A stretch of DNA of 64,000 bases from Rhodobacter sp. CZR27 (GTDB lineage: Bacteria; Pseudomonadota; Alphaproteobacteria; Rhodobacterales; Rhodobacteraceae): NCBI RefSeq assembly GCF_002407205.1, contig NZ_CP023548.1, positions 2,318,501 to 2,382,500 on the forward strand, written 5' to 3'. The translations under genes were made by a program, and so were the position numbers. Below, piece by piece: positions 6,025-19,568 of the stretch. Within the stretch, counting starts at the first letter, position 1; each line of letters starts with the position of its first letter. Below the pieces are notes generated by a model. It did not search any database. It was not told the DNA's origin and worked only from the letters and a program-made list of their open reading frames with translations.

Positions 6025-6756
6025 GGCATCCTCGCAGGCGACGTAGCGCTGCACGCGGATCCGGGCGGACGAGACCTCGAGCAGGTTGAAGTCGTTGGGC
6101 TCTCCGCGCACCCGGGTCGAGAGGCCGGTGCCGGCATGGACCTGCAGCACCACCCCGCGGCCCGCGGCCTCGGCGAAGGGACCGACGCGCCAGGTGTGCA
6201 GATGGCCCGAAAGGACCACGTCGGCGCCGCAGCCGGCCAGATCCTCGATGGCGCGTCCCGCCCCGTGCATCAGTTCCTTGTCGTCCTCGGGCGTGTGCTC
6301 CATCGGGTGATGCACCACGACGATGCGGACCCGTTCCGTCTCGCCCGCGAAACTGCGGCGGATGCGGGCCAGCGAGCGCGACCGGAACCAGCCGCGCTGC
6401 CAGGCCAGCGGATTCACCGTATTGGCGCCGACCACGATCATCTCGTCGTCGATCCAGCAGGGTTCCAGGTCGCGGCCGAACCAGCGGCGGTAGCGTTGCC
6501 ACGGCTTCACCAGCCGCACCGCAAGATTGTGCAGCGGCACGTCATGGTTGCCCGGCACCACCAGGACCGGCGGCTTCAGCGCCGCGACGAAGGTCGCCGC
6601 CGCGCGGAACTGCGCCTCGGTCGCCCGCTGCGTCAGGTCGCCCGAGATCGCCACCAGATCCGGCTCTAGGCTGTTCACCGTCTCGATCAGCGGCCGCATG
6701 AGCTCCGGTCGGTCGCGGCCGAAATGGAGGTCAGACAGATGGAGAACCCGCCTCAT
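5956..6756 (-). CDS. Calcineurin-like metallophosphoesterase
   Basis: A 266-residue cytoplasmic enzyme with the full binuclear-metal signature: DLHF (D9, H11), GDLT (D40), GNHD (70-72), an HHP motif, then GHLH. The arrangement resembles class III cyclic-nucleotide phosphodiesterases such as CpdA, but substrate cannot be decided; UDP-diacylglucosamine or other phosphodiesters are equally possible for this superfamily. It is the last gene of a leftward group and overlaps the stop of the upstream kinase-like gene's ATG by four bases (ATGA), indicating translational coupling. Its final 69 bases run antisense to the end of the EAL gene. Confidence 0.9.
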
Positions 6757-7670
6757 CGCACGTCGCGATCCCAGTGCCCGGGCACGGTGACCTCCAGCGC
6801 GCCCTCGATGGCGCGCAGGTCGAACGGTGGCACCATCCGCTCGCGCTCGCCGTCAAGGGCGACGTGCCAGCGCCGGCTGCGGCCGGCGGGCAGGTCGATC
6901 TCGACATGCGGGCCGCTCATCATCGCGTAGTTCTGGTCGACGCTGGCATAGCCCAGCGCGAGTGCCGCCGCGTTGCGGAACATGCCGAGCCGCCCGGTGT
7001 CGGGCGCGATGAAGACCACGAGATCCCCTGCCGCCACCCGGTCCGAGCCTTCAAGCTTCATCTGTTCCAGCTGGAAGGCGTTGTTTACCACGAAGATCAG
7101 CGGCGAGCGCACGATCCGTTCCTCGCCGCCGGCCCGGACGTGCAGGCGCAGCGGCCTGCCCATCCTTGCCAGCACCTTCAGCACCGACCAGTAGGCAAGG
7201 AAGCGGCTGCGGCCCCAGCGGCCATAGATCTCCTCGCGCACCTTCAGGATCGCCGGATACACGCCAAGGCTCGCGTTGTTCAGGAAGACCTGCCCGTTCA
7301 CGGTGGCGACGCGGATGGGCGCCGTGCGGCCGGCGCAGATCACCGCCACCGACTCGTCAAGATCGTCCGGCAGCGCCAGCGAGCGCGCGAAATAGTTGAA
7401 TGTGCCCAGCGGCAGGATGCCCATCCGCCGCCCGCTCTGCGACAGGGCGGCGGCGACGGCGCAGATCGTGCCGTCGCCCCCCGCGGCCACGATGGTGCCG
7501 AAGCCGCGCTCGACTGCCTCGCGCGCAACGGCCTCGATCTGGCTGCCATCCTCGACCAGATCGACGTGCACCTCGACACCCTGCGCCCGGAAGGCGTCGC
7601 GGACGCGATCCGCCTCCTCGCCCTTGCCGGAGCCGGCATTCATCACCACACAGATGTCGGGCTGGGCCAT
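6753..7670 (-). CDS. Diacylglycerol kinase-like lipid kinase (DAGK_cat / YegS family)
   Basis: A 305-residue protein with the catalytic-domain signature NAGSGKG near residue 11 and GGDGT at 64-68, followed by GILPLGTFNYFAR. Members phosphorylate diacylglycerol, phosphatidylglycerol or sphingoid-type lipids with ATP at the inner membrane surface. There is no membrane helix, so this is not the small integral DgkA type. It is coupled by a four-base overlap to the metallophosphoesterase, so a kinase and a phosphatase/phosphodiesterase are made together. I infer a role in lipid head-group turnover; the lipid substrate is unknown. Confidence 0.88.
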   Translation of the reverse strand: MAQPDICVVMNAGSGKGEEADRVRDAFRAQGVEVHVDLVEDGSQIEAVAREAVERGFGTIVAAGGDGTICAVAAALSQSGRRMGILPLGTFNYFARSLALPDDLDESVAVICAGRTAPIRVATVNGQVFLNNASLGVYPAILKVREEIYGRWGRSRFLAYWSVLKVLARMGRPLRLHVRAGGEERIVRSPLIFVVNNAFQLEQMKLEGSDRVAAGDLVVFIAPDTGRLGMFRNAAALALGYASVDQNYAMMSGPHVEIDLPAGRSRRWHVALDGERERMVPPFDLRAIEGALEVTVPGHWDRDVR

Positions 7671-8419: not shown

Positions 8420-9439
8420 TCACTGTTGCCCGAAAGTCGCAATCGGCGGCTTGTCCCGCTCCAGATAGTCGAAGACATAGAGTTCGCGGATCAGCGCAAG
8501 GCCAAGGGCCGCCAGCGGCGTGGCCAGCAAGAGCCCCATCAGGCCGAACAGGACGCCGAGCAGCAACTGGGCCGAGATGATCAGTGCGGGCGGCAGATCC
8601 ACCTGTTCCTTCTGCACGAGCGGAGTGATCAGGTAGCTCTCGAGCGTCTGCACCCCGAGATAGACCGCGACCACCAGCCCGACGAGGCCCCAGCCCTCGG
8701 GCAGGGCAAGCAGCAGCGCGGGCAGCGCCGCGATGACCGGGCCGATGTTCGGGATGAAGGCAAGCAGCGCCGCGATCAGCCCCAGGATGAAGGCCAGGGG
8801 CACGCCGATCAGCCAAAGCCCCAGCCAGGTGAGCACGCCGACCACCGTCATCGAGATGAGCTGCCCGCCCAGCCAGCCGCGCAGGGTGCGGTTCGCGATG
8901 TCCATGATCTCGTCGCCGCGCGGCCGGACCGGCGGCGCCAGCAGCGCGCGCAGCCCGCGCCGGTAAAGGCCGGGATCGATCGCGGTGTAAAGGCCGATGA
9001 ACAGGATGATGACGAGGTTGCCCAGCGCGCCGAAGGTGGCGCTGACCGCGGTCGAGGCAAAGCCGCCCTCGCCCGACATCAGCCGGGACGGCGCGAGGCG
9101 CGACAGCAGGGTCGAGCCCCAGGAATATTGCGCGATGCGCTCGCGCAGGCCCTCGAAGGCCGGGGGAAGCTGGCGCGTCAGTTCCTCGATCTGGTCGAAC
9201 ATGTCGGCGGCGAAGGACAGGAACGCTCCGGCCAGCGCGGCGAGGCAAAGGAGGATGAAGACCGCGATGCCGCCGCCCCGCGGCAGGCCGGTCAGGCCCG
9301 AGACGATCTCGCCGCCCGCCGACAGGAAGACGCCGAACAGGATGGCGGCAAAGATCACCAGCAGCACGTCCGGGGCGATCACGACCAGCACCGCCAGCAC
9401 GAGCGCCAGCACCAAGAGGGAAACCGTCCGCCGGCGCAT
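8420..9439 (-). CDS. AI-2E family transporter (PerM-like membrane protein)
   Basis: A 339-residue integral membrane protein with about eight hydrophobic helices: a pair at the N-terminus, one near residue 60, a soluble middle segment, then a C-terminal cluster containing GLIAALLAFIPNIGPVIAA, the typical family signature. Family members are putative permeases; only a few export autoinducer-2 and others act as Na+/H+ antiporters, so no substrate is given. A GGAGG ribosome site precedes the ATG. It ends 103 bases before the methyltransferase start on the same strand. Confidence 0.9.
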   Translation of the reverse strand: MRRRTVSLLVLALVLAVLVVIAPDVLLVIFAAILFGVFLSAGGEIVSGLTGLPRGGGIAVFILLCLAALAGAFLSFAADMFDQIEELTRQLPPAFEGLRERIAQYSWGSTLLSRLAPSRLMSGEGGFASTAVSATFGALGNLVIILFIGLYTAIDPGLYRRGLRALLAPPVRPRGDEIMDIANRTLRGWLGGQLISMTVVGVLTWLGLWLIGVPLAFILGLIAALLAFIPNIGPVIAALPALLLALPEGWGLVGLVVAVYLGVQTLESYLITPLVQKEQVDLPPALIISAQLLLGVLFGLMGLLLATPLAALGLALIRELYVFDYLERDKPPIATFGQQ

Positions 9440-9521
9440 CGTTCCTCCGCATCAGTCTGGGGCCAACGTCCTGGTCCGGCGCCTGTTCCCCGCCGCCTGC
9501 CGGTCGGCGCACCAGTCGCAC

Positions 9522-9560
9522 GGGCCGCAGGGGCGATAGCCGAGCGGGCGGCTGCGGCCC
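9522..9560. repeat. Inverted repeat downstream of the deaminase operon
   Basis: GGGCCGCAG at 9522-9530 and CTGCGGCCC at 9552-9560 form a perfect nine-base inverted repeat with a 21-base loop, in the gap between the deaminase stop and the AI-2E gene start. It may end or stabilise the leftward transporter-deaminase transcript, but no U-tract follows, so a terminator role is uncertain. Confidence 0.4.
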
Positions 9561-9633
9561 CGACCGGCCGTGGCGCCCGGCTCTCCTGCCCGGCGGGATG
9601 CGGCCCTGTCGTCGCCTTCCCGCGCGGACGAGC

Positions 9634-10911
9634 CTAGGCGGAGGGGGCCTTGTGGCGGCGCCGGACGCTTTCCGGGCGGCCCGGCAGCGACAGCCGGGCG
9701 TCGTTGCGGACCTTCTCCGAGATCACCCGACCTTGCGCGATGACGCAGAGCCGGTCGGGCCGCAGCCGCACCGCCTCGACCGCATCGCCGGCATCGAGCA
9801 CCACGAGCGAGGCTGGCGCGCCTTCATGCAGGCCGTAGTCGAGCCCCATGATCCTCGCGTTCTCGGCCGTCACCATGTCGAAGCAGCGCCGCATCTCGGC
9901 CGGATGGGTCATCTGCGCGACATGCAGCCCCATGAAGGCCACGTCGAGCATGTCCGCGGTGCCCAGCGAATACCACGGGTCGAGAACGCAATCCTGCCCC
10001 CAGCCGACGGAGATGCCTTGCGCCTGCATCTCCTTCACCCGCGTCAGGCCGCGCCGCTTGGGATAGGTGTCGTGCCGGCCCTGCAGCACGATGTTGATCA
10101 GCGGGTTCGGGATCGCGGCCACCCGCGCCTCGGCCATCAGCGGCAGCAGCTTCGAGACGTAGTAGTTGTCCATCGAATGCATCGAGGTCAGGTGGCTGCC
10201 CGCCGCCCTGCCCTGCAACCCGGTTCGGATCACCTCGGCGGCCAGCGTCTCGATGTGGCGGCTCAGCGGGTCGTCGGTCTCGTCGCAATGCAGGTCCAGC
10301 ATCAGCCCGCGGTCGGCGGCGATCTCGCAGAGGTCGCGCACCGAGGCCGCTCCCTCGGCCATCGTGCGTTCGAAATGCGGGATGCCGCCCACCACGTCCA
10401 CGCCCATGTCGAGCGCGCGCAGCAGGTTCGCCCGCGCCGTCGGATCGCGGTAGAGCCCGTCCTGCGGGAAGGCGACAAGCTGGAGGTCCATCCAGCCCTT
10501 CACCTGCTCGCGCACCTCCAGCAGCGCCTGCACGCCGAGCAGCCGGTCATCGCAGACATCGACGTGAGAGCGGATGGCAAGCAACCCCATGCTCGCCGCC
10601 CAGTCGCAATAGGCGAGCGCGCGCGCGATCATCTCCTCGACCGTGACGATGCGCTTCAGCTCGCCCCAGAGCGCGATCCCCTCCAGCAGCGTGCCCGACG
10701 CGTTCACCCTCGGCAGGCCGTAGGAGAGCGTCGCGTCCATGTGGAAATGCGGATCGACGAAGGGCGGGCTGACGAGGTCGCCGGTGGCATCGATCACGCG
10801 GCCCGCCTCGGCTTCCAGCCGGCCGATGGCGGCGATCCGGTCGCCGCGGATGCCCACGTCGGCCACCCGGCCATCGGGCAGCGTGCCGCCCCTGACGATG
10901 AGATCGAACAT
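9634..10911 (-). CDS. CodA-like cytosine deaminase, probable 5-methylcytosine deaminase
   Basis: A 425-residue amidohydrolase closely similar in pattern to E. coli CodA. Metal ligands H55 and H57 (DPHFHMD), later HCDETDD with the third histidine and catalytic glutamate, a conserved SHLTSMHS segment, and the catalytic aspartate D307 in GQDCVLDPW are all present. CodA has Asp at the next position (Asp314 in E. coli), whereas here it is Cys308. Loss of that 'discriminating' Asp is the published mark of bacterial 5-methylcytosine deaminases, one of which is Rsp0341 of R. sphaeroides; this gene is almost certainly its orthologue. The product would be thymine (or uracil from cytosine) plus ammonia. 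It overlaps the upstream permease stop by one base (TGATG) and is the last gene of a nucleoside-type ABC operon, which should supply its substrate. Confidence 0.9.
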
Positions 10912-11858
10912 CAGCGTTCCCCGCGGTTGAAGGGCTGCATCAGCGCCGCCGGAACCTCGGCGCGGCGCGACATGAGGACAAGGGCCAGGATCGACAGCGC
11001 ATAGGGCGCCATCAGGAACAGCTGGTAAGGCACGAGCTGCCCCAGCGGCGTCTGCTGCAGCCGCACCTGCAGCGCATCGAAGGCGGCGAAGAGCAGCGCG
11101 CCGAGCACTGCCTTGCCGGGCTTCCACGCCCCGAAGATCACGAGCGCGATGCAGATCCAGCCGCGGCCGTTCACCATCTCGAAGAAGAAGCTGGAGAAGG
11201 CGGAGAGCGTCAGGAACGCCCCGCCCACCGCCATCAGCCCCGAGCCGACGACCACCGCGCCGATCCTGAGGCCCACAACGGACAGCCCCTGCGCATCGAC
11301 GGCGGACGGGCTCTCTCCCGCCGCCCGCACGGCAAGGCCCAGCGGCGTGCGCCACAGCACCAGCGCGACGAGCGCGGCCACCACGAAGGCCGCATAGGTC
11401 AGCGGCGTCTGTTGGAAGAGTGCCGGACCGACCAGCGGGATCTGCGACAGACCCGGCACCGGCCAGACGGCAAAGGGCTCGATCTTCGGCGGGCTGGAGA
11501 CCTCGGGCAGGATCAGGCGATAGGCGAAGTAGCTGGTCGAGGTGGCAAGCAGCGTGATCCCCAGCCCTACGACATGCTGCGACAGGCCGAAGGGCACGAC
11601 CAGCACCGCGTGGAGCAGGCCGAACAGCATCCCGGCCAGCATGGCGACCGCCGCGCCCTCCCACAGCCCCGCGCCGGCCCAGACCGTGATCCAGCCGGAG
11701 AAGGCGCCGACCACCATGATCCCCTCGATCCCGAGGTTCAGAACGCCCGCGCGCTCGCAGATCAGTTCCCCCATCGTGGCGAAGATCAGCGGCGAGGCGA
11801 TGCGCACCGCGGCCGCCCAGAAGCTGACCGAGAGCAGGATGTCCAGAAGCTCGCTCAT
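10911..11858 (-). CDS. Nucleoside-type ABC transporter permease 2 (YufQ/BmpD-like)
   Basis: A 315-residue inner-membrane permease with about eight helices and the signature [21 protein letters not shown] typical of the second permease of BMP-dependent (purine) nucleoside importers. Its start overlaps the first permease by four bases (ATGA) and its stop overlaps the deaminase start, so all three are translationally coupled. It should form the channel with permease 1 and use the ATPase and binding protein of the same operon. Confidence 0.92.
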
Positions 11859-12898
11859 CCGCGCACCACCCGGAACCGGATCAGGAGGATCGCCAGCACC
11901 ATGAACAGCAGCGACGTGGCCAGCAGCATGTCGGCGATATAGGTCGGCACATGGGCCGCGCGGCTCATGCTGTCGGCGCCGACGAAGACGCCCGCGACGA
12001 ACAGCGCCGCCGGCACCACGGCGAGCGGGTTGAGCAGCGCGAGCATCGCCACGATGATGCCAGTGTAGCCGAAGCCGGGGCTGAGATCGAGCGTCAGGTG
12101 CCCCTTCAACCCCGCCACCTCGGAAAAGCCCGCGAGTGCTGCAAGGCCCCCCGACAGCAGCGCGGTCTTCACCAGCACCCCGTCCACCGGGATGCCGGCA
12201 AAGCGCGCGGCCCGGGCGTTCAGCCCCACGGCACGCATCTCGTAGCCAAGCGCGGTGCGCCGCTCGATCACCCAGACCGCGAGGGCGGCGATCAGCGCGA
12301 GGCCGAAGCCCCAGTGCAGGCGCAGCCCCTCGACCAGCCGCGGCAGCCGCGCCTCCTTGAGCAGAGGCGCGGACTTGGGCCAGCCCATGCCCATCGGGTC
12401 CTTCAGCGGTCCTTCCAGCAGGTAGCTGACGAAGAGCAGCATGATGAAGTTGAAGAGCAGCGTGGTCACGACCTCGTCCACGCCAAAGCGGGTCTTGAGC
12501 GCGACGGGTCCAAGCAGGACCAGCGCGCCCGCGGCCATCGCGGCCAGCGCCATCAGCGGCAGCACCAGCGGCCCGCCGACCGCGCCGCTGCCCAGCAGGA
12601 CGGTGATGATGGCCCCGGCGTAAAGCTGCGCCTCGGCGCCGATGTTCCACAGCCGCGCGCGGAAGGCCACCGCCACCGCGAGCCCGGTGAAGATCAGCGG
12701 CGTCGCGCGGTTCAGCGTCTCGAGCGCCGCGAACTTCGACCCCACCGCGCCCTTCACGATCAGGCCGAGCGTGGCCAGCGGGTCGGCCCCCGCCACCGCG
12801 GCAAGGCTTGAGGCCACGACGAGCGTCGCGAGCAGTGCGGCGGCGGGCAGTCCGATCCGGCGCAGCGCCGACGGGTTGGCAACCGGCTCAAGCCGCAT
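11855..12898 (-). CDS. Nucleoside-type ABC transporter permease 1 (YufP/BmpC-like)
   Basis: A 347-residue inner-membrane permease with about ten hydrophobic segments. The segments [18 protein letters not shown] and [13 protein letters not shown] are typical of branched-chain/ribose-type permeases that work with BMP proteins. It overlaps the ATPase gene by 11 bases and permease 2 by four bases. It has the family's usual length, with no break. Confidence 0.92.
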
Positions 12899-14408
12899 CG
12901 GCGAACCCGTGCCCGGCCATCCAGAGGCCGAGTTCGGCCTGCGATTTCGTGCCGCGCGGGAAGCCGGGCGACAGGCGGCCTTCGGACATTACATGAATGG
13001 TGTCGGACAAGGCCATGATTTCATCCAGATCTTCCGATATCAGCAGAACCGCTGCCCCCTCGTCGCGCGCCTTGAGGAGCCGCGAATGGACATAGGTGAT
13101 CGCGCCGATGTCCAGCCCGCGCACCGGCTGGTTCGCGAGGATGATCCGCGGCCCCGGCTCCAGCACCCGGCCAAGGATCAGCTTCTGCATGTTGCCGCCC
13201 GACAGCAGGCGGATGCGCGTCTCGGGCCCCGGGCAGCGCACGTCATAGGTGCGGATGATCACCTCGGTGAAGGCCCGCGCCGCGCGCCAGTCCATCCAGC
13301 CGCCTTTCGCGAAGCGCGAGCGGTAGCCTTCGAGGATCGCGTTCTCGGTCAGGGTGAAGTCCGCGATGGTGCCGGTGGCGTGGCGATCCTCGGGGATGCG
13401 CGCGATGCCCGCGCCCACCGCCGCCCGCGGCGTCCAGTCATGGACCTCGGCCCCGGCGACCATGAGCGCGCCCGCGTCCGGCCGGATCAGCCCCGACACC
13501 AGATCGGCCAGCGCCGCCTGGCCGTTGCCGGACACGCCGGCAAGGCCGGTAATCGTGCCGGCGCGAAGGTCGAGCGTCACCGCGCGCAGCCCGGGAATCG
13601 CCCCCCGGTGCGGGGTAAAGACCGCCTGAAGCCGCATCAGCACCGCGCCGGGACGCGGCGGGGCGACCTCGGGCGGCACCACCTCCTCGCCGACCATCAT
13701 CGCGGCCAGCGCGTGGCGGTCGGTCTCGGCGGTCGCGACCTCGCCCACCACGCGGCCGTGGCGCAGAACGACGCAGCGGTCGGCCACTTCGACCACCTCA
13801 TGCAGCTTGTGCGAGATGAAGATGATCGAGAGCCCCCTGGCCACGGCCAGACGCAGGGTGCGGAACAGCGCCTCGGTCTCCTGCGGGGTCAGGACGGCGG
13901 TGGGCTCGTCCAGGATCAGGATGCGCGCGTCGCGGTAGAGCGCCTTGAGGATCTCGACCCGCTGCCGCTCGCCCACCGACAGGGTGCCGACCTTGGCATC
14001 GGGGTGAACCGACAGGCCGAAGTCGCGGCTCAGCGCCTCGACCCGCGCCCGCGCCGCGCGCTGCCCGAGCGACAGGCGCCAGAGCGGCGCGGTGCCGATC
14101 AGGATGTTCTCCAGCACCGTCAGGTTGTCGGCCAGCGTGAAGTGCTGGTGCACCATGCCGACGCCCGCGGCCAGCGCCGCGCGCGGATGGCCCGGCGGCA
14201 GCGGCTTGCCGAAGACCTCCACCGTGCCCTCGTCGGCCACATAATGGCCGAAGAGGATGTTCATCAGCGTGGTCTTGCCGGCCCCGTTCTCGCCCAGAAG
14301 CGCCACGACCTCTCCCTGTCGCAGGGAGAGGCTGATGCCGGCATTGGCGAGAAGCGCTCCGAACCGCTTGGTGATCCCGGAGAGGCGCAGGACGACCGGT
14401 TCGCTCAC
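12888..14408 (-). CDS. Nucleoside-type ABC transporter ATPase, two-domain (YufO/BmpB-like)
   Basis: A 506-residue cytoplasmic ATPase with two fused nucleotide-binding domains, as in ribose and BMP-type importers. The first has an intact Walker A (GENGAGKTT, 39-47), signature LSVGERQR and Walker B ILILDEPTAVLT. The second is degenerate as usual for the family: GVSGNGQAA replaces the Walker A lysine, the signature reads LSGGNMQK and the Walker B region LANQPVRGLD lacks the normal acidic pair. The first ABC domain is therefore the likely catalytic site. Its ATG overlaps the stop of the binding-protein gene by four bases. Confidence 0.93.
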   Translation of the reverse strand: MSEPVVLRLSGITKRFGALLANAGISLSLRQGEVVALLGENGAGKTTLMNILFGHYVADEGTVEVFGKPLPPGHPRAALAAGVGMVHQHFTLADNLTVLENILIGTAPLWRLSLGQRAARARVEALSRDFGLSVHPDAKVGTLSVGERQRVEILKALYRDARILILDEPTAVLTPQETEALFRTLRLAVARGLSIIFISHKLHEVVEVADRCVVLRHGRVVGEVATAETDRHALAAMMVGEEVVPPEVAPPRPGAVLMRLQAVFTPHRGAIPGLRAVTLDLRAGTITGLAGVSGNGQAALADLVSGLIRPDAGALMVAGAEVHDWTPRAAVGAGIARIPEDRHATGTIADFTLTENAILEGYRSRFAKGGWMDWRAARAFTEVIIRTYDVRCPGPETRIRLLSGGNMQKLILGRVLEPGPRIILANQPVRGLDIGAITYVHSRLLKARDEGAAVLLISEDLDEIMALSDTIHVMSEGRLSPGFPRGTKSQAELGLWMAGHGFADAA

Positions 14409-15409
14409 GAGGATTTCGGCTCGCTGTCGTCAATGGCCACGGTGAAGGTTCCGGCCTTGATCGCGGCCTCGCGTTCCGCCACCAGCGCCATCGTCTCGGC
14501 AGGCACCTTGCCCTCGAAGGTGCCGAGCGGGGCGAGCGAGCAGCCGCCTTCCTTCATGAAGGAATAGACCCCGTAGTCGGCGGCCTTGAAGGTGCCGGCC
14601 TGAACCTCGGCCACCGCCTTCTCGAAGGTCGGCTCGAAATGCCAGAGCGCGGAGGCCACCACCGTATCGGGATAGTCGGCCTGCGTGTCGATCACGTTGC
14701 CGATCGCCAGCACGCCGCGCTCCTTGGCGGCATCCGAGACGCCGAAGCGTTCGGCGTAAAGCAGGTCGGCGCCATTCTCGATCATGGCGAAGGCGGTTTC
14801 CTTCGCCTTCGGCGGATCGAACCACGAGCCGATGAAGCTGACCTGGAACTTCGTCTCGGGCTTCACCTCGCGAGCACCCGCGATGAAGGCGTTCATCAGC
14901 CGGTTGACCTCGGGGATCGGGAAGCCGCCGACCATGCCGATGTTGCCCTTGCTCATCGCGCCGGCAATGAGTCCCGTAAGATAGGCCGCGTCCTGGATGT
15001 AGTTGTCGAAGACGGCGAGGTTCGGCACCGCCTCGTCCGGCGGGAAGCTCGACCCCATCAGGAAGGCCACGTCGGGATAGTCGGCCGCGACCTCGCGGGC
15101 CTCCTGCTCGACGCCGAAGATCTCGCCCACGATCAGCTTCACGCCGCTCTCGGCATATTCGCGCATGACGCGGGGATAGTCGGTGTTCGCGACGTTCTCG
15201 GTGAAGCTGTAGTCCACGCGACCCGCGGCCTTCGCGGCCTCGGCGGCCTTGTGGATGCGGCTGACCCACTGCTGCTCGACCGGCACGGTGTAGATGCCGG
15301 CGACCTTCAGCGTCTCCTGCGCCCGAAGCGTCCGCGGCAGGGCGCCCAGCGCCAGCGCCGCACCTCCGGCCATCAGAACTCCTCGCCGCGTCGTTGCGAA
15401 TCCCGTCAT
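14405..15409 (-). CDS. BMP-family (basic membrane protein) substrate-binding protein
   Basis: A 334-residue periplasmic binding protein, first gene of the leftward transporter-deaminase operon. Residues 1-30 form a signal with a twin-arginine-like TTRRGVLM motif and a possible cleavage after LRAQ. The mature part has the PBP1-type core LKVAGIYTVPVEQQW and GGFPIPEVN. BMP proteins of this group bind nucleosides or related purine/pyrimidine compounds. The chosen start (15409) has GAGGA five bases upstream; the frame remains open further upstream but without a better start. The deaminase at the operon's end suggests nucleobases or nucleosides as ligand (inference). Confidence 0.9.
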   Translation of the reverse strand: MTGFATTRRGVLMAGGAALALGALPRTLRAQETLKVAGIYTVPVEQQWVSRIHKAAEAAKAAGRVDYSFTENVANTDYPRVMREYAESGVKLIVGEIFGVEQEAREVAADYPDVAFLMGSSFPPDEAVPNLAVFDNYIQDAAYLTGLIAGAMSKGNIGMVGGFPIPEVNRLMNAFIAGAREVKPETKFQVSFIGSWFDPPKAKETAFAMIENGADLLYAERFGVSDAAKERGVLAIGNVIDTQADYPDTVVASALWHFEPTFEKAVAEVQAGTFKAADYGVYSFMKEGGCSLAPLGTFEGKVPAETMALVAEREAAIKAGTFTVAIDDSEPKSS

Positions 15410-15670
15410 GTCCGTCCTCGCCCTGCTGGATGTTTGACCGGACGGTAAGACGCGGGCGTCCGAGGGGCAAGACCGCGGCCCCTGCCCGAAAGTCGGCACT
15501 GCCGTCGAATTCCTTACAGCCCGAAATGCCTGCGAAAAATTTGTTACCTGCCGCGGTTAGGGAACTTGCAAGAATCCGTTTTCGGCCTTTAGCTGACACT
15601 AATAGCCGCTGTGGTGGGTCCCTCCCGCCGAAAGAACGGCATTCGAAACGACAACAACGGGAGAGTTCCG

Positions 15671-16771
15671 ATGACGATGAAACTTGCACTGGCCGCCTCG
15701 GTCAGCCTTGCGGCGCTTGGCGCGGCCTCGGGCGCGCTGGCCCAGAGCGACGAACTGGTCGCCGCCGCCAAGGCCGAAGGCATGCTGACGACCATCGCGC
15801 TGCCGCACAACTGGTGCGGCTATGGCGACGTGATCGCGGGCTTCAAGGCGAAATATCCCGAGATCACCGTGAACGAGCTGAACCCCGACGCGGGCTCGGC
15901 CGACGAGCTCGAGGCGATCCGGGCGAACAAGGACAACACCGGCCCGCAGGCGCCCGACGTGATCGACGTGGGCCTGGCCTTCGGTCCGCAGGCCAAGGCC
16001 GAAGGACTGATCGTGCCCTACAAGGTCGCGACCTGGGACGAGATCCCGGCCGAGATCAAGGACGCCGACGGCTACTGGTATGGCGACTATTACGGCGTGA
16101 TGTCCTTCGGGGTGAACACCGACCTCGTGTCCGAGGTGCCGAAAAGCTGGACGGCGCTGCTCGACAGCCAGTATGCCAACGCCTTCGCGCTGGCGGGCGA
16201 TCCGCGCGCCTCGAACCAGGCGATCCTCGCCGTCATGTCGGCGGGCGTCGCGGGCGGCGCCGAGCCGGGGCAGGCCTCCGGCGAGAAGGGACTCGAGTTC
16301 TTTGCCGAGCTGAACAAGGTGGGCGGTTTCGTCCCGGTGATCGGCAAGGCCGGCACCATCGCCCAGGGCCAGACCCCCATCGTCGCGGCCTGGGACTACA
16401 ACCTGCTGTCCTGGCGCGACGAGCTGAAGGGCAACCCGCCGATGGAGGTCATCATCCCCGAGGGCCCGAGCCTCGCCGGCGTCTATGTGCAGGCGATCTC
16501 GGCCTATGCGCCGCATCCGAACGCGGCGAAGCTGTGGATGGAATACCTTTACTCGGACGAGGGCCAGCTGGGCTGGCTGAAGGGCTACTGCCACCCCGCC
16601 CGCTTCAACGCCATGGTCGAGGCCGGCAAGGTGCCGCAGGACCTGCTCGACGCGTTGCCCCCGGCCGAGGGCTACGCCCGCGCCGTCTTCCCGACCGTCG
16701 AACAGCAGGAGGCGAACAAGGCCGCGGTGACCGCGGGCTGGGACAAGGTCGTGGGCGCCAACGTCCAGTGA
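15671..16771 (+). CDS. ABC transporter substrate-binding protein (family 1, Fe3+/aminoethylphosphonate/polyamine-like)
   Basis: A 366-residue periplasmic protein with a clear signal peptide (MKLALAASVSLAALGAASGALA, cut after ALA-Q; residues 3 onward). The mature sequence has the binding-protein fold seen in Fe3+, 2-aminoethylphosphonate and spermidine/putrescine receptors, with segments DVIDVGLAFG and GVMSFGVNTD. The ligand cannot be named. A GGGAGAG ribosome site fixes the ATG at 15671, and a longer in-frame version from 15611 is rejected. It is first in a rightward binding protein-permease-permease-ATPase operon and is followed by a strong hairpin that probably keeps its expression higher than that of the permeases. 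Confidence 0.88.
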   Translation: MTMKLALAASVSLAALGAASGALAQSDELVAAAKAEGMLTTIALPHNWCGYGDVIAGFKAKYPEITVNELNPDAGSADELEAIRANKDNTGPQAPDVIDVGLAFGPQAKAEGLIVPYKVATWDEIPAEIKDADGYWYGDYYGVMSFGVNTDLVSEVPKSWTALLDSQYANAFALAGDPRASNQAILAVMSAGVAGGAEPGQASGEKGLEFFAELNKVGGFVPVIGKAGTIAQGQTPIVAAWDYNLLSWRDELKGNPPMEVIIPEGPSLAGVYVQAISAYAPHPNAAKLWMEYLYSDEGQLGWLKGYCHPARFNAMVEAGKVPQDLLDALPPAEGYARAVFPTVEQQEANKAAVTAGWDKVVGANVQ

Positions 16772-16782
16772 CCTGACCTTCC

Positions 16783-16813
16783 GGGCCTCCGCCACGCCGG
16801 CGGAGGCCCTTTT
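16783..16813 (+). terminator. Intra-operon hairpin with short T-run after the binding-protein gene
   Basis: A perfect 11-base stem (GGGCCTCCGCC at 16783-16793 and GGCGGAGGCCC at 16799-16809) with a five-base loop is followed by TTTT at 16810-16813. It lies 11 bases after the binding-protein stop and just before the first permease, so it fits a partial terminator or 3'-end stabiliser that sets a high receptor-to-permease ratio. Confidence 0.75.
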
Positions 16814-16826
16814 CGGTGGACCCTGC

Positions 16827-17708
16827 ATGACTGACCTGCCTCCGAAGAGCGCCAAGGCCTTCGTCTCGCTGCCGCTGAACTGGTTCGGTGTCGCGCCGTT
16901 CCTGCTGTTCGCGCTGCTGTTCCTGATCCTGCCCACGGCGCATATCGTGCTGGGCGCCTTCCGCAACCCGGCGGGCGACTTCACGCTGGCCAATATCCGG
17001 GGCCTCTTCACGCCCTCGATCCTCGGCGCCTTCTGGATCTCGATCCGGATCAGCCTGCTGACCGCGGCGCTCGGCTGCCTCGCGGGCTTCCTGATCGCTG
17101 CCGCCGTGACGCGCGGCGGGCTGCCGGGGCCTTTGCGCGGCGCGCTGCTGACCTTTTCCGGCGTGGCGTCGAACTTCGCCGGCGTGCCGCTGGCCTTCGC
17201 CTTCATCGCCACGCTCGGGCGGCTCGGCTTCCTGACGGTGATCCTGCGCGAGTGGTTCGGGCTGAACCTCTATGGCACCGGCTTCAACCTGATCAGCTTC
17301 CTCGGGCTGACGCTCACCTACCTCTATTTCCAGATCCCGCTGATGATCCTGATCATCACGCCCGCGCTCGACGGGCTGAAGCGTGAATGGCGCGAGGCGG
17401 CCGAGACGCTGGGCGCGTCCGGCGCGCAATACTGGCGGATGGTGGCGCTGCCGGTGCTCTGGCCGTCGTTCCTCGGCACCTTCGCGCTGCTCTTCGCCAA
17501 TTCCTTCGGAGCGGTGGCGACCGCCATGGCGCTGACCGGCTCGCAGCTCTCCATCGTGCCGATCATCCTTTTCGCGCAGATCCGCGGCGACGTGCTGCAG
17601 GACCCGCACCTGGGCTATGCCATCGCCTTCGGAATGATCGTGCTGACGGGGCTGGCGAACGTGATCTACATCGTGCTGCGCACCCGCGCCGAGAGGTGGG
17701 TGAAATGA
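16827..17708 (+). CDS. ABC transporter permease 1 (PotB/FbpB-like)
   Basis: A 293-residue inner-membrane protein with six predicted helices and the cytoplasmic EAA loop REAAETLGASGAQYWRMVALP that contacts the ATPase. A GGTGGA sequence precedes the ATG. Its stop overlaps the ATG of the second permease (ATGA), so the two channel halves are translated together. Family: binding-protein-dependent transport systems inner membrane component. Confidence 0.93.
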   Translation: MTDLPPKSAKAFVSLPLNWFGVAPFLLFALLFLILPTAHIVLGAFRNPAGDFTLANIRGLFTPSILGAFWISIRISLLTAALGCLAGFLIAAAVTRGGLPGPLRGALLTFSGVASNFAGVPLAFAFIATLGRLGFLTVILREWFGLNLYGTGFNLISFLGLTLTYLYFQIPLMILIITPALDGLKREWREAAETLGASGAQYWRMVALPVLWPSFLGTFALLFANSFGAVATAMALTGSQLSIVPIILFAQIRGDVLQDPHLGYAIAFGMIVLTGLANVIYIVLRTRAERWVK

Positions 17709-18493
17709 GATCGGCCAAGCTCTGGTCCTGGCTCGCGCTTGCGGCGGGCATGCTCTACTTCTTCCTGCCGCTGATCGGGATGTTCGAGTTCTCGCTGCGG
17801 GCGCGGCGGGGCGAATACAGCTTCGACGCCTATGCGAGCGTGCTGGGCGACCCGGCCTTCCGCGCGACCTTCGGCTATTCGGTGCTGATGGCACTCTTCA
17901 CCATCGCCTTCGGCATCCTGCTCGTGGTGCCCACGGTGTTCTGGGTGCGCCTGAAGCTGCCTCGCTGGCGGCCGGTGATCGAGTTCATCACGCTTCTGCC
18001 GCTGGTGATCCCGCCCATCGTCATCGTCTTCGGCTACATCCGGCTCTACAACACATCGAGCTGGCTGCCGCTGACCGGCACGGCGATGGGGACGAACCTT
18101 CTCCTGATGTTCGGCTACACGATGCTGGCGCTGCCCTACATGTATCGCGCCGTGGATACCGGTCTTCGCACCATCGACGTGCAGACCCTGACGGAAGCGG
18201 CGCAAAGCCTCGGCGCGGGCTGGGTCACCATCCTCGCGCGGCTGATCCTGCCCAACGTGCTGGTGGCGGTCCTGTCGGGGGCCTTCCTGACCTTCGCCAT
18301 CGTGATCGGCGAGTTCGTCCTTGCCGCTCTGCTGAACCGCCCGGCCTTCGGGCCCTACATGGTCTGGATGGGCTCGAACAAGGCCTATGAACCGGCGGCG
18401 CTGGCCGTGATCGCCTTCGTCGTCACCTGGGCCTGCATGGCCCTGATCCAGCTGGTCACCCGGCTGTCGAAACATACCAGAGCCCAGAGATGA
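17705..18493 (+). CDS. ABC transporter permease 2 (PotC-like)
   Basis: A 262-residue inner-membrane protein with six helices and an EAA loop reading LTEAAQSLGAGWVTILARLILP. The ATG at 17705 overlaps the preceding stop by four bases. The frame is open upstream but this is antisense-free overlap with permease 1 and not a plausible start. It forms the channel with permease 1. Confidence 0.93.
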   Translation: MRSAKLWSWLALAAGMLYFFLPLIGMFEFSLRARRGEYSFDAYASVLGDPAFRATFGYSVLMALFTIAFGILLVVPTVFWVRLKLPRWRPVIEFITLLPLVIPPIVIVFGYIRLYNTSSWLPLTGTAMGTNLLLMFGYTMLALPYMYRAVDTGLRTIDVQTLTEAAQSLGAGWVTILARLILPNVLVAVLSGAFLTFAIVIGEFVLAALLNRPAFGPYMVWMGSNKAYEPAALAVIAFVVTWACMALIQLVTRLSKHTRAQR

Positions 18494-18509
18494 GAAGGAA
18501 CTTCGCCTG

Positions 18510-19568
18510 ATGGCCTTCCTCGAGATCGCCCGGCTGGAGAAATCCTTCGGCCCCCTGCACGTCGTGCGCAACTTCAACCTGTCGGTCGAGAAGGGAGAGT
18601 TCGTCTCGCTGCTCGGCCCATCGGGCTGCGGCAAGACCACGGTGCTGCGCATGGTCGCCGGCTTCGAGTCGGCGGATCAGGGCGCCATCCTGATCGAGGG
18701 CAAGGACGTGGTGCGCCAGCGCCCGAACGCCCGCAAGATCGGCATGGTGTTCCAGGCCTATGCCCTCTTCCCGAACCTGACCGTGGCGCAGAACGTGGGC
18801 TTCGGGCTGAAGGTCGCGGGCGTGCCCCGGCGCGAAGCCGATGCGCGCGTGGCCGAGATGCTGGCGCTGATCGGCCTGCCCGATCTGGGCGGACGCTACC
18901 CGTTCCAGCTGTCGGGCGGGCAGCAGCAGCGCGTGGCGCTGGCGAGGGCGCTCGCGGTGCGGCCGCGGGTGCTGCTGCTGGACGAGCCGCTTTCAGCGCT
19001 GGATGCGCAGATCCGCGTATCCTTGCGCAACGAGATCCGCGCCATCCAGCAGCGGCTGGGCATCACGACGATCTTCGTGACCCACGATCAGGAAGAGGCG
19101 CTGTCGATGTCCGACCGCATCGTGGTGATGAACGGCGGCGTGGCGGAACAGGTCGGCACGCCGTTCGAGATCTACAACCACCCGACGACGAAGTTCGTGG
19201 CCAATTTCGTGGGCACGCTGAACACGCTGACCGCCGAGGTCGAGGACCCCGCCGCCGGCACCGTCCGCGTCGCCGGCCAGGTCATCCAGTTGCCCGCTCC
19301 GGTCCCGGCGCCGCGCGGCGGGCGCATCGGCCTTGCCCTGCGCCCCGAGGCGCTGCGCCTCGGCACGGTGGCGGGGCGCGAGGTGATCCTGCCCGCCACC
19401 ATCGCGAACGTGCATTTCCTCGGCAGCGTGATCCGCCTGCAGGTCCAGACCGCCGGCACCAGCGTGGCGCTCGACACCTTCAACCGGTCCGACGTGCCGC
19501 CGCCGCAGGTGGGCGCGCAGACACAGGTCAGCTTTTCCGCGCGGGACGTGATCGTGCTGGAGCACTAG
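18510..19568 (+). CDS. ABC transporter ATPase with TOBE domain (PotA/FbpC-like)
   Basis: A 352-residue ATPase: Walker A GPSGCGKTT (36-44), Q-loop MVFQAYALFP, signature LSGGQQQR, Walker B LLLDEPLSALD and H-loop VTHD are all intact. The C-terminal third is the regulatory/TOBE domain of the CUT1/PotA group (ALRPEALRLG and following). An AAGGAA ribosome site precedes the ATG. It completes a rightward receptor-permease-permease-ATPase importer; the ligand is not deducible from this gene. Confidence 0.94.
   Translation: MAFLEIARLEKSFGPLHVVRNFNLSVEKGEFVSLLGPSGCGKTTVLRMVAGFESADQGAILIEGKDVVRQRPNARKIGMVFQAYALFPNLTVAQNVGFGLKVAGVPRREADARVAEMLALIGLPDLGGRYPFQLSGGQQQRVALARALAVRPRVLLLDEPLSALDAQIRVSLRNEIRAIQQRLGITTIFVTHDQEEALSMSDRIVVMNGGVAEQVGTPFEIYNHPTTKFVANFVGTLNTLTAEVEDPAAGTVRVAGQVIQLPAPVPAPRGGRIGLALRPEALRLGTVAGREVILPATIANVHFLGSVIRLQVQTAGTSVALDTFNRSDVPPPQVGAQTQVSFSARDVIVLEH

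Follow-up and report, generated by a model that had tools for sequence, protein, structure and literature searches.

Five overlapping genes in Rhodobacter sp. CZR27 as a probable unit for uptake and deamination of free cytosine-type bases

What does an ATP-binding cassette (ABC) importer carry when its genes are fused by overlaps to the gene of a CodA-type deaminase? The question is raised by an operon in a stretch of 64,000 nucleotides from Rhodobacter sp. CZR27 (contig NZ_CP023548.1, positions 2,318,501 to 2,382,500; the whole of this stretch is called the window below), in which a periplasmic receptor of the basic membrane protein (BMP) type, an ATPase and two permeases are followed by such a deaminase. 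An earlier note, based on the letters of the sequence, had described a nucleoside-type importer for methylated or ordinary pyrimidine bases or nucleosides. The analysis reported here leads to a narrower answer that we hold with reasonable confidence: together the five genes would serve the import of free cytosine-type bases (cytosine and/or 5-methylcytosine) and their deamination as a single unit, often under RutR-like control, and the transporter is a probable ABC counterpart of CodB. The type of enzyme is already known through an orthologue, and therefore it is the cargo of the transporter and its control that can be added.

The five genes lie on the minus strand between positions 9634 and 15409 of the window, and their coordinates and gene calls were verified. 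The receptor of 334 amino acids (14405..15409; PF02608, 116 bits) is followed by a double-domain ABC ATPase with a GTG start (12888..14408; two stretches matching PF00005), two BPD_transp_2 permeases (11855..12898 and 10911..11858; PF02653, 124 and 95 bits) and the deaminase of 425 amino acids (9634..10911; NF005748/PRK07572, 764 bits against a cut-off of 438). All the parts of a BMP-type ABC importer, namely a PF02608 receptor, a double ATPase and two BPD_transp_2 permeases, are present. The genes overlap at all four junctions, by 1, 4, 11 and 4 bases counted from the deaminase upwards, the last being the overlap of the ATPase and receptor genes. The deaminase start codon and the stop codon of the permease gene before it share one base (TGATG), so that the coupling of the enzyme to the last permease of a BMP-type operon, as claimed in the earlier note, is borne out.

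The linkage is conserved. In an even sample of 385 genomes of the class, 40 contain a deaminase with an NF005748 match over the cut-off, and the full five-gene cassette, in the same order and on the same strand, was found in 28 of them, the genome of the window included. The same holds for 56 of 80 loci of named relatives (the best 80 of 586), and in each set one further locus is interrupted by a contig end (G071 in the class sample and L151 among the named loci; G and L numbers denote genomes and loci of this analysis). When the receptor clade was sought alone, using an alignment (A2) built mostly from cassette receptors and a threshold of E <= 1e-60, it was found in 31 of the 385 genomes, the weakest match having an E-value of 9.1e-150, and all 31 were among the 40 genomes with the deaminase. 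The receptor is adjacent to the deaminase in 28 of the 31; in G071 it is found on a separate, short contig, and in G001 and G131 it stands apart from the deaminase. The 31 genomes span 18 families, in counts that ignore kinship. Correlations of 0.53-0.71 between the distances of the deaminase and those of the transporter genes over the 28 cassettes were calculated without a control and are not used as evidence.

The closest solved relatives of the deaminase are the Klebsiella enzyme 4r7w (E 4.2e-98) and E. coli CodA (1k6w, E 1.1e-96). In the HMMER alignment to the 1k6w chain, which is free of gaps up to this point, Asp307 and Cys308 (codons at 9988..9993, minus strand) correspond to Asp313 and Asp314 of CodA, and the Klebsiella enzyme has Asp-Ser at the same pair of positions. 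The replacement of the Asp-Asp pair of CodA by Asp-Cys was thus verified by both coordinates and alignment. His55, His57, Gln150, His208, Glu211, His240 and Asp307, to which we assign metal-binding and catalytic roles by analogy with CodA, do not vary among the 20 sequences aligned, which include the window protein. The protein therefore combines the CodA-type metal and catalytic residues with loss of CodA Asp314, which is the pattern of 5-methylcytosine deaminases of the Rsp0341/Kpn00632 type, and it falls outside the E. coli type of CodA (PRK09230, 399 bits against a cut-off of 483; Asp-Cys and not Asp-Asp). The cysteine, to which the earlier note had drawn attention, is correctly called but is a trait of the subfamily and not a local oddity. 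The equivalent position is Cys in 36, Ser in 4 and Asp in none of the 40 NF005748 proteins of the class sample (window protein included), and it is Cys in all 28 proteins from full cassettes of that sample, again with the window's own, in 80/80 named relatives and in 120/120 listed homologues (the best 120 of 8000 scored). As a separate observation, deaminase relatives of the Ser type that lack the transporter (L062, L071; G081, G367) adjoin genes of the acetamidase/formamidase family, and their substrate may differ.

Rsp0341 of R. sphaeroides is reportedly a 5-methylcytosine deaminase, and the same is said of Kpn00632 of Klebsiella. The nearest named homologues place the genome of the window (G000; 4.44 Mb, 4 contigs) in Cereibacter, and the four further Cereibacter genomes in the comparison all encode the deaminase, with 88-93% identity; three of the four have the whole cassette, and the remaining one (L173) is cut by a contig end within the ATPase gene. 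The window deaminase shares 88% identity with its counterpart in one of them, the C. sphaeroides-like G388; this counterpart and the Rhodobacter sp. AKP1 protein are 99% identical, and no second full-length relative was found in G388. The window protein is therefore almost certainly the orthologue of Rsp0341, and activity on 5-methylcytosine is predicted from this orthology. In PMC6186785, Kpn00632 and a CodA with the Asp replaced (Asp-to-Ala; Asp315 when counted with Met) support the rule that loss of this Asp goes with 5-methylcytosine deamination.

The best solved relatives of the receptor are AtzT (6pi5; 133 bits, E 1.3e-37) and 3s99 (124 bits, E 6.9e-35), and the same two came top in a profile search, whereas named nucleoside binders reached 60 bits or less. 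An AlphaFold2 model of the receptor has a mean predicted local distance difference test (pLDDT) score of 91. Fold comparison with this model put AtzT first by E-value, with similar TM-scores of about 0.72-0.78 throughout, nucleoside-bound chains included; as far as the model goes, the fold does not separate base binders from nucleoside binders. According to PMC6834077, AtzT has a twin-arginine signal and binds guanine with a dissociation constant of 110 nM and adenine with one of 2.5 µM, other nucleobases being bound at 620 µM or worse, while 3s99, from Brucella, was modelled with adenine. The N-terminus of the window receptor also contains a stretch that looks twin-arginine-like by eye (TRRGVL).

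The AtzT site residues (Tyr45, Ser97, Glu165, Asn169, Trp194, Asn218 and Asn220) were mapped by sequence onto the 28 cassette receptors. Glu165 is kept as Glu167 in all 28 and Trp194 as Trp196 in 25, with Phe in the other three, and Trp48 (28/28) stands one column off Tyr45. Ser97 is replaced by Ile97 in the window (Ala in 19, Val in 4, Ile in 4 and Ser in 1 of the 28), Asn169 by Leu171 and Asn218 by Glu220 in every cassette, and Asn220 by Phe222 in the window (Phe in 20, Ala in 8). By this mapping just the Glu and the Trp of the AtzT/3s99 purine-base site are retained; 3s99 itself retains Ser, Glu and Trp, with Gly, His and Asp at AtzT positions 169, 218 and 220. Features of the clade are Glu96 (Glu in 25, Asp in 3), Glu220 and Arg221 (the latter two in 28/28). 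The base sandwich thus appears to be partly kept together with one Glu while the purine-reading edge has been rebuilt, and because of this change a different base is the probable ligand. Cytosine and 5-methylcytosine cannot be told apart as the main ligand at the level of sequence, and no feature of the receptor was seen that discriminates between them. It is conceivable, if rather doubtful, that 5-methylcytosine is the main ligand, the operon then being a dedicated ABC uptake system for debris of methylated DNA or RNA, with thymine as product, reductive degradation and RutR-like control by thymine.

Three BMP genes were counted in the genome, and the two other BMP operons (L168, G000:C1:951000-970900, and L169, G000:C2:768000-787900) lie beside a purine nucleoside phosphorylase and a xanthine dehydrogenase. 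In the one followed by the phosphorylase gene (TIGR01698, 338 bits), the nearest relatives of the receptor are Lbp, the structure of which contains guanosine (156 bits), and PnrA; in the one with the xanthine dehydrogenase (TIGR02965, 1211 bits), they are 3s99 (E 3e-100) and AtzT. Each of the three BMP receptors is encoded beside an enzyme for a possible next step. These paralogues bear on the alternatives, of which one is that the transporter brings in nucleosides such as cytidine or 5-methyldeoxycytidine, from which a hydrolase or phosphorylase inside the cell frees the base before deamination. Several solved BMP receptors do bind nucleosides, and by TM-score the chains with bound nucleosides fit the model about as closely as AtzT does, but the scores of 133 and 124 bits to free-base binders against 60 or less to named nucleoside binders speak for a base, and the paralogue linked to the phosphorylase suits the nucleoside role better. 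The motifs DxSFN and GVDSNQ, which we take to be ribose-site motifs of PnrA-type receptors, are absent from the window receptor and present in that paralogue. Moreover, clustering of the open reading frames that flank the 28 full cassettes revealed no neighbour at a constant position beyond single genera (the largest cluster comprised 7 of the 28 loci, at varying positions). Nucleoside import is accordingly considered unlikely, and the label 'nucleoside-type' of the earlier note was abandoned, the Lbp/PnrA-like receptor being the one in the phosphorylase operon. The broader claim of pyrimidine import survived in its base part, which is favoured by linkage, co-occurrence, the lack of base permeases and the RutR-like operator across relatives, and lost its nucleoside part to the free-base lineage of the receptor.

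Import of a purine or an isoguanine-like base, with the deaminase acting on isoguanine or a similar ring and pyrimidines as side substrates, would agree with the guanine and adenine binding of AtzT and with the adenine modelled in 3s99. CodA-type enzymes can deaminate isoguanine. Against this, AtzT Ser97, Asn169, Asn218 and Asn220 are all changed (to the constant Leu171 and Glu220, the other two being variable), the operon with the xanthine dehydrogenase and the close relative of 3s99 already suits purine bases, and the RutR-like palindrome described below points to pyrimidines; this explanation is quite improbable. A role of transporter and enzyme in the use of creatinine or some other cyclic guanidine is very improbable indeed. 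Some homologues are named cytosine/creatinine deaminase, and a few receptor-less ones lie near one-carbon, arginase or arginine-deiminase-family genes, but these are isolated instances from loci that lack the transporter, the deaminase of one such locus (L070) has Ser and not Cys, and RutR-like control does not fit such a substrate.

The import of free cytosine-type bases is in keeping with what else the genome encodes. The NCS1 (PF02133) and NCS2 (PF00860) families of base permeases gave no Pfam match in the genome, while 4/14 and 11/14 control genomes score. PF02133 was matched in 7 of the 31 receptor-bearing genomes and in 1 of the 9 deaminase genomes without the receptor; since 32 of the 40 thus have no NCS1 match, the cassette would provide a probable entry route for bases in most of them. 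A upp gene is present (281 bits, cut-off 208), and a pyrimidine cluster elsewhere in the genome encodes PreA (726 bits against a cut-off of 335), a dihydropyrimidinase (609 against 393), a PreT-like flavoprotein (assigned by position and general similarity), an enzyme of the allantoate/carbamoyl-hydrolase type, an ABC ATPase and two RutR-like proteins. This cluster fits the breakdown of uracil and thymine.

Control was examined with the pattern TTGACCANNTGGTCAA, which we take to be the E. coli RutR consensus, in stretches of 381 bases ending 30 bases into the BMP gene (starts extrapolated) from 85 cassettes. With up to 3 mismatches it was found before the BMP gene in 48 of the 85, compared with 1.0% of first-order shuffles; the 48, to which the window's site does not belong, comprise 11/28 class-sample cassettes (from five families) and 37/57 others. 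Its density is 1.48 per kb before BMP and 0.09 elsewhere in the same loci. An inverted-repeat search without prior pattern put the same palindrome on top, as TTTTA-N8-TAAAA, TTACC-N4-GGTAA, TTTAC-N6-GTAAA and TGACC-N4-GGTCA in 11, 9, 8 and 6 loci, respectively, with a maximum of 4 loci for any repeat in 20 shuffles. A degenerate form, TTKACCNNNNGGTMAA, was chosen after the sites in these data had been viewed, just TTGACCANNTGGTCAA having been set beforehand. With at most one mismatch it precedes BMP in 47/85 cassettes (7/28 in the class sample, 39/54 named), as compared with 0/84 before the ATPase gene, 4/82 before the deaminase inside cassettes, 1/85 for the reversed pattern and 0/35 before deaminase genes outside the 85 (up to 3 of which are cassette loci without a stretch before BMP). 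Among the receptors that are not adjacent to the deaminase, that of G001 has a perfect site, that of G071 a site with 2 mismatches and that of G131 none. The BMP gene of L095 is likewise preceded by a perfect site.

In the window, a degenerate palindrome resembling the RutR operator (CTTACCGTCCGGTCAA; 15434..15449, minus strand) lies 24 bases before the ATG of the BMP gene, with 4 mismatches to the E. coli consensus. When the consensus itself was sought throughout the window, 3 mismatches being allowed, 2 sites turned up; both lie outside the operon, and the number is that expected by chance. Elsewhere in the genome, two tandem RutR-like TetR genes (L188:9361-10835), each preceded by a palindrome of the RutR type, lie inside the cluster for reductive pyrimidine breakdown, and one of the two proteins matches 3loc with an E-value of 1.5e-57. 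The only perfect site of the degenerate form in the genome stands before one of these genes; sites with one mismatch stand before the other, before the putative start of the PreT-like gene and at the window's own position, and none was found near the other two BMP operons. RutR-like proteins (E <= 1e-40) occur in 28 of the 31 receptor-bearing genomes and 5 of the 9 other deaminase genomes, and in G169 and G266 a RutR-like gene lies divergently beside the cassette. PMC10891134 gives the RutR palindrome as about 16 bp and cites RutR, in a reference title, as sensing uracil and thymine.

Several findings weigh against the import of free cytosine-type bases under such control. AtzT barely binds nucleobases other than guanine and adenine, and therefore lineage alone would suggest a purine. 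The deaminase occurs without the receptor in 9/40 genomes, and 23/80 named loci, 15 of the 23 from Mesorhizobium, have no transporter gene beside it (two of them, L089 and L090, have a contig end directly in front of the gene); the enzyme therefore also works without the transporter. The neighbourhoods of these receptor-less loci offer no common substitute transporter among the 30 open reading frames scanned. In one (L043) a BPD_transp_2 permease lies about 2.6 kb away, and L114, the single Mesorhizobium locus in the scan, has a dihydroxy-acid dehydratase and an EamA protein as neighbours, relatives of which were found by clustering in 14 and 16 of the 23 loci. As for regulation, the palindrome is rarer in the broader class sample (11/28) than among the named loci, which are closer relatives, genome-wide the degenerate form has 23 sites compared with 29 for its reversed control, and the site of the window is one mismatch off even this form. 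It is conserved in one sister genome (L172), but its right half is altered in two (L170 and L171). No RutR-like protein scored over the NCBIfam RutR cut-off, and their frequency was counted within the 40 deaminase genomes. The palindrome is enriched over the cassettes but degenerate in the window and altered in sisters; many cassettes are thus probably controlled by a RutR-like protein, whereas for Cereibacter this is uncertain. A prediction of RutR control for this operon may already exist in regulon databases.

In the proposed route, the BMP receptor would capture a free 4-aminopyrimidine base in the periplasm, and the double ATPase with its two permeases would move it inward. The Asp-Cys deaminase would then convert cytosine to uracil or 5-methylcytosine to thymine with release of ammonia, and the product could enter salvage through upp or be broken down by the reductive pathway, for which the genome has genes at another place. 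In roughly one half of the cassettes, and perhaps weakly in the window, a RutR-like repressor would sit on the palindrome before BMP until lifted by uracil or thymine. Such a scheme would, for many relatives, connect the cassette with a switch of the RutR kind, which in E. coli responds to the very products of the reaction. It would also give a candidate ligand to a receptor clade whose members are named just nucleoside-binding or basic membrane proteins, and would add a candidate third branch, for pyrimidine bases, beside those for purine nucleosides and purine bases in one genome.

A literature search found no paper joining a cytosine deaminase with a basic membrane protein and an ABC transporter. 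In PMC9870897, Ruegeria pomeroyi SPO2802-2805, with the gene order seen here, is listed as a nucleoside ABC transporter; no paper was found on the gene that follows, SPO2806, and a study of Ruegeria transporters (PMC10130141) makes no mention of cytosine or nucleoside.

The surroundings of the operon may be described briefly. A scan of positions 9000-16500 against Rfam gave no matches, and searches for sigma-70-type promoter patterns and for terminator patterns gave none either. A divergent ABC operon (15611-19568, plus strand) encodes a substrate-binding protein distantly like PhnS (58 bits, cut-off 395), two permease-like proteins and an ATPase near the putative 2-aminoethylphosphonate protein PhnT2 (428 bits, cut-off 458). 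A lipid-kinase-like protein of the YegS/MamU type, under the family cut-offs, is encoded at 6753-7670 on the minus strand.

Comparison with known systems places the operon as follows. The top NCBIfam matches of the receptor, the ATPase and both permeases are the 'putative B6 ABC transporter' set (NF047927-NF047930), but the scores (84 bits against a cut-off of 400, 423 against 670, and 164 against 400 and 208 against 465) are far below the cut-offs for all four proteins, and this identity was therefore dropped. With AtzT (6pi5/6pi6/6pii) and 3s99 the receptor shares the fold, the closest sequence match and the Glu and Trp of the base site, although identity is about 31% and the remaining site residues are changed. 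With the nucleoside receptors PnrA, BmpD and Lbp it has PF02608 and the fold in common, but the sequence match is weaker and the DKSFN and GVDSNQ of the phosphorylase-linked paralogue are absent. The RutR-like proteins and the palindrome are of the same type as in E. coli RutR, yet the proteins fall under the NCBIfam cut-off and are encoded in a reductive pyrimidine cluster. The deaminase belongs to the same family as Rsp0341 and Kpn00632, with the same catalytic residues and the same loss of Asp at the discriminating position; no essential difference from Rsp0341 is seen, and it has Cys where the Klebsiella enzyme has Ser. The nearest parallel for the whole is E. coli codBA, in which the genes of a base importer and a CodA-type deaminase are likewise paired. 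That importer, CodB, belongs to the NCS1 symporters, whereas the operon of the window has an ABC importer with a BMP receptor, in a genome with no NCS1 match.

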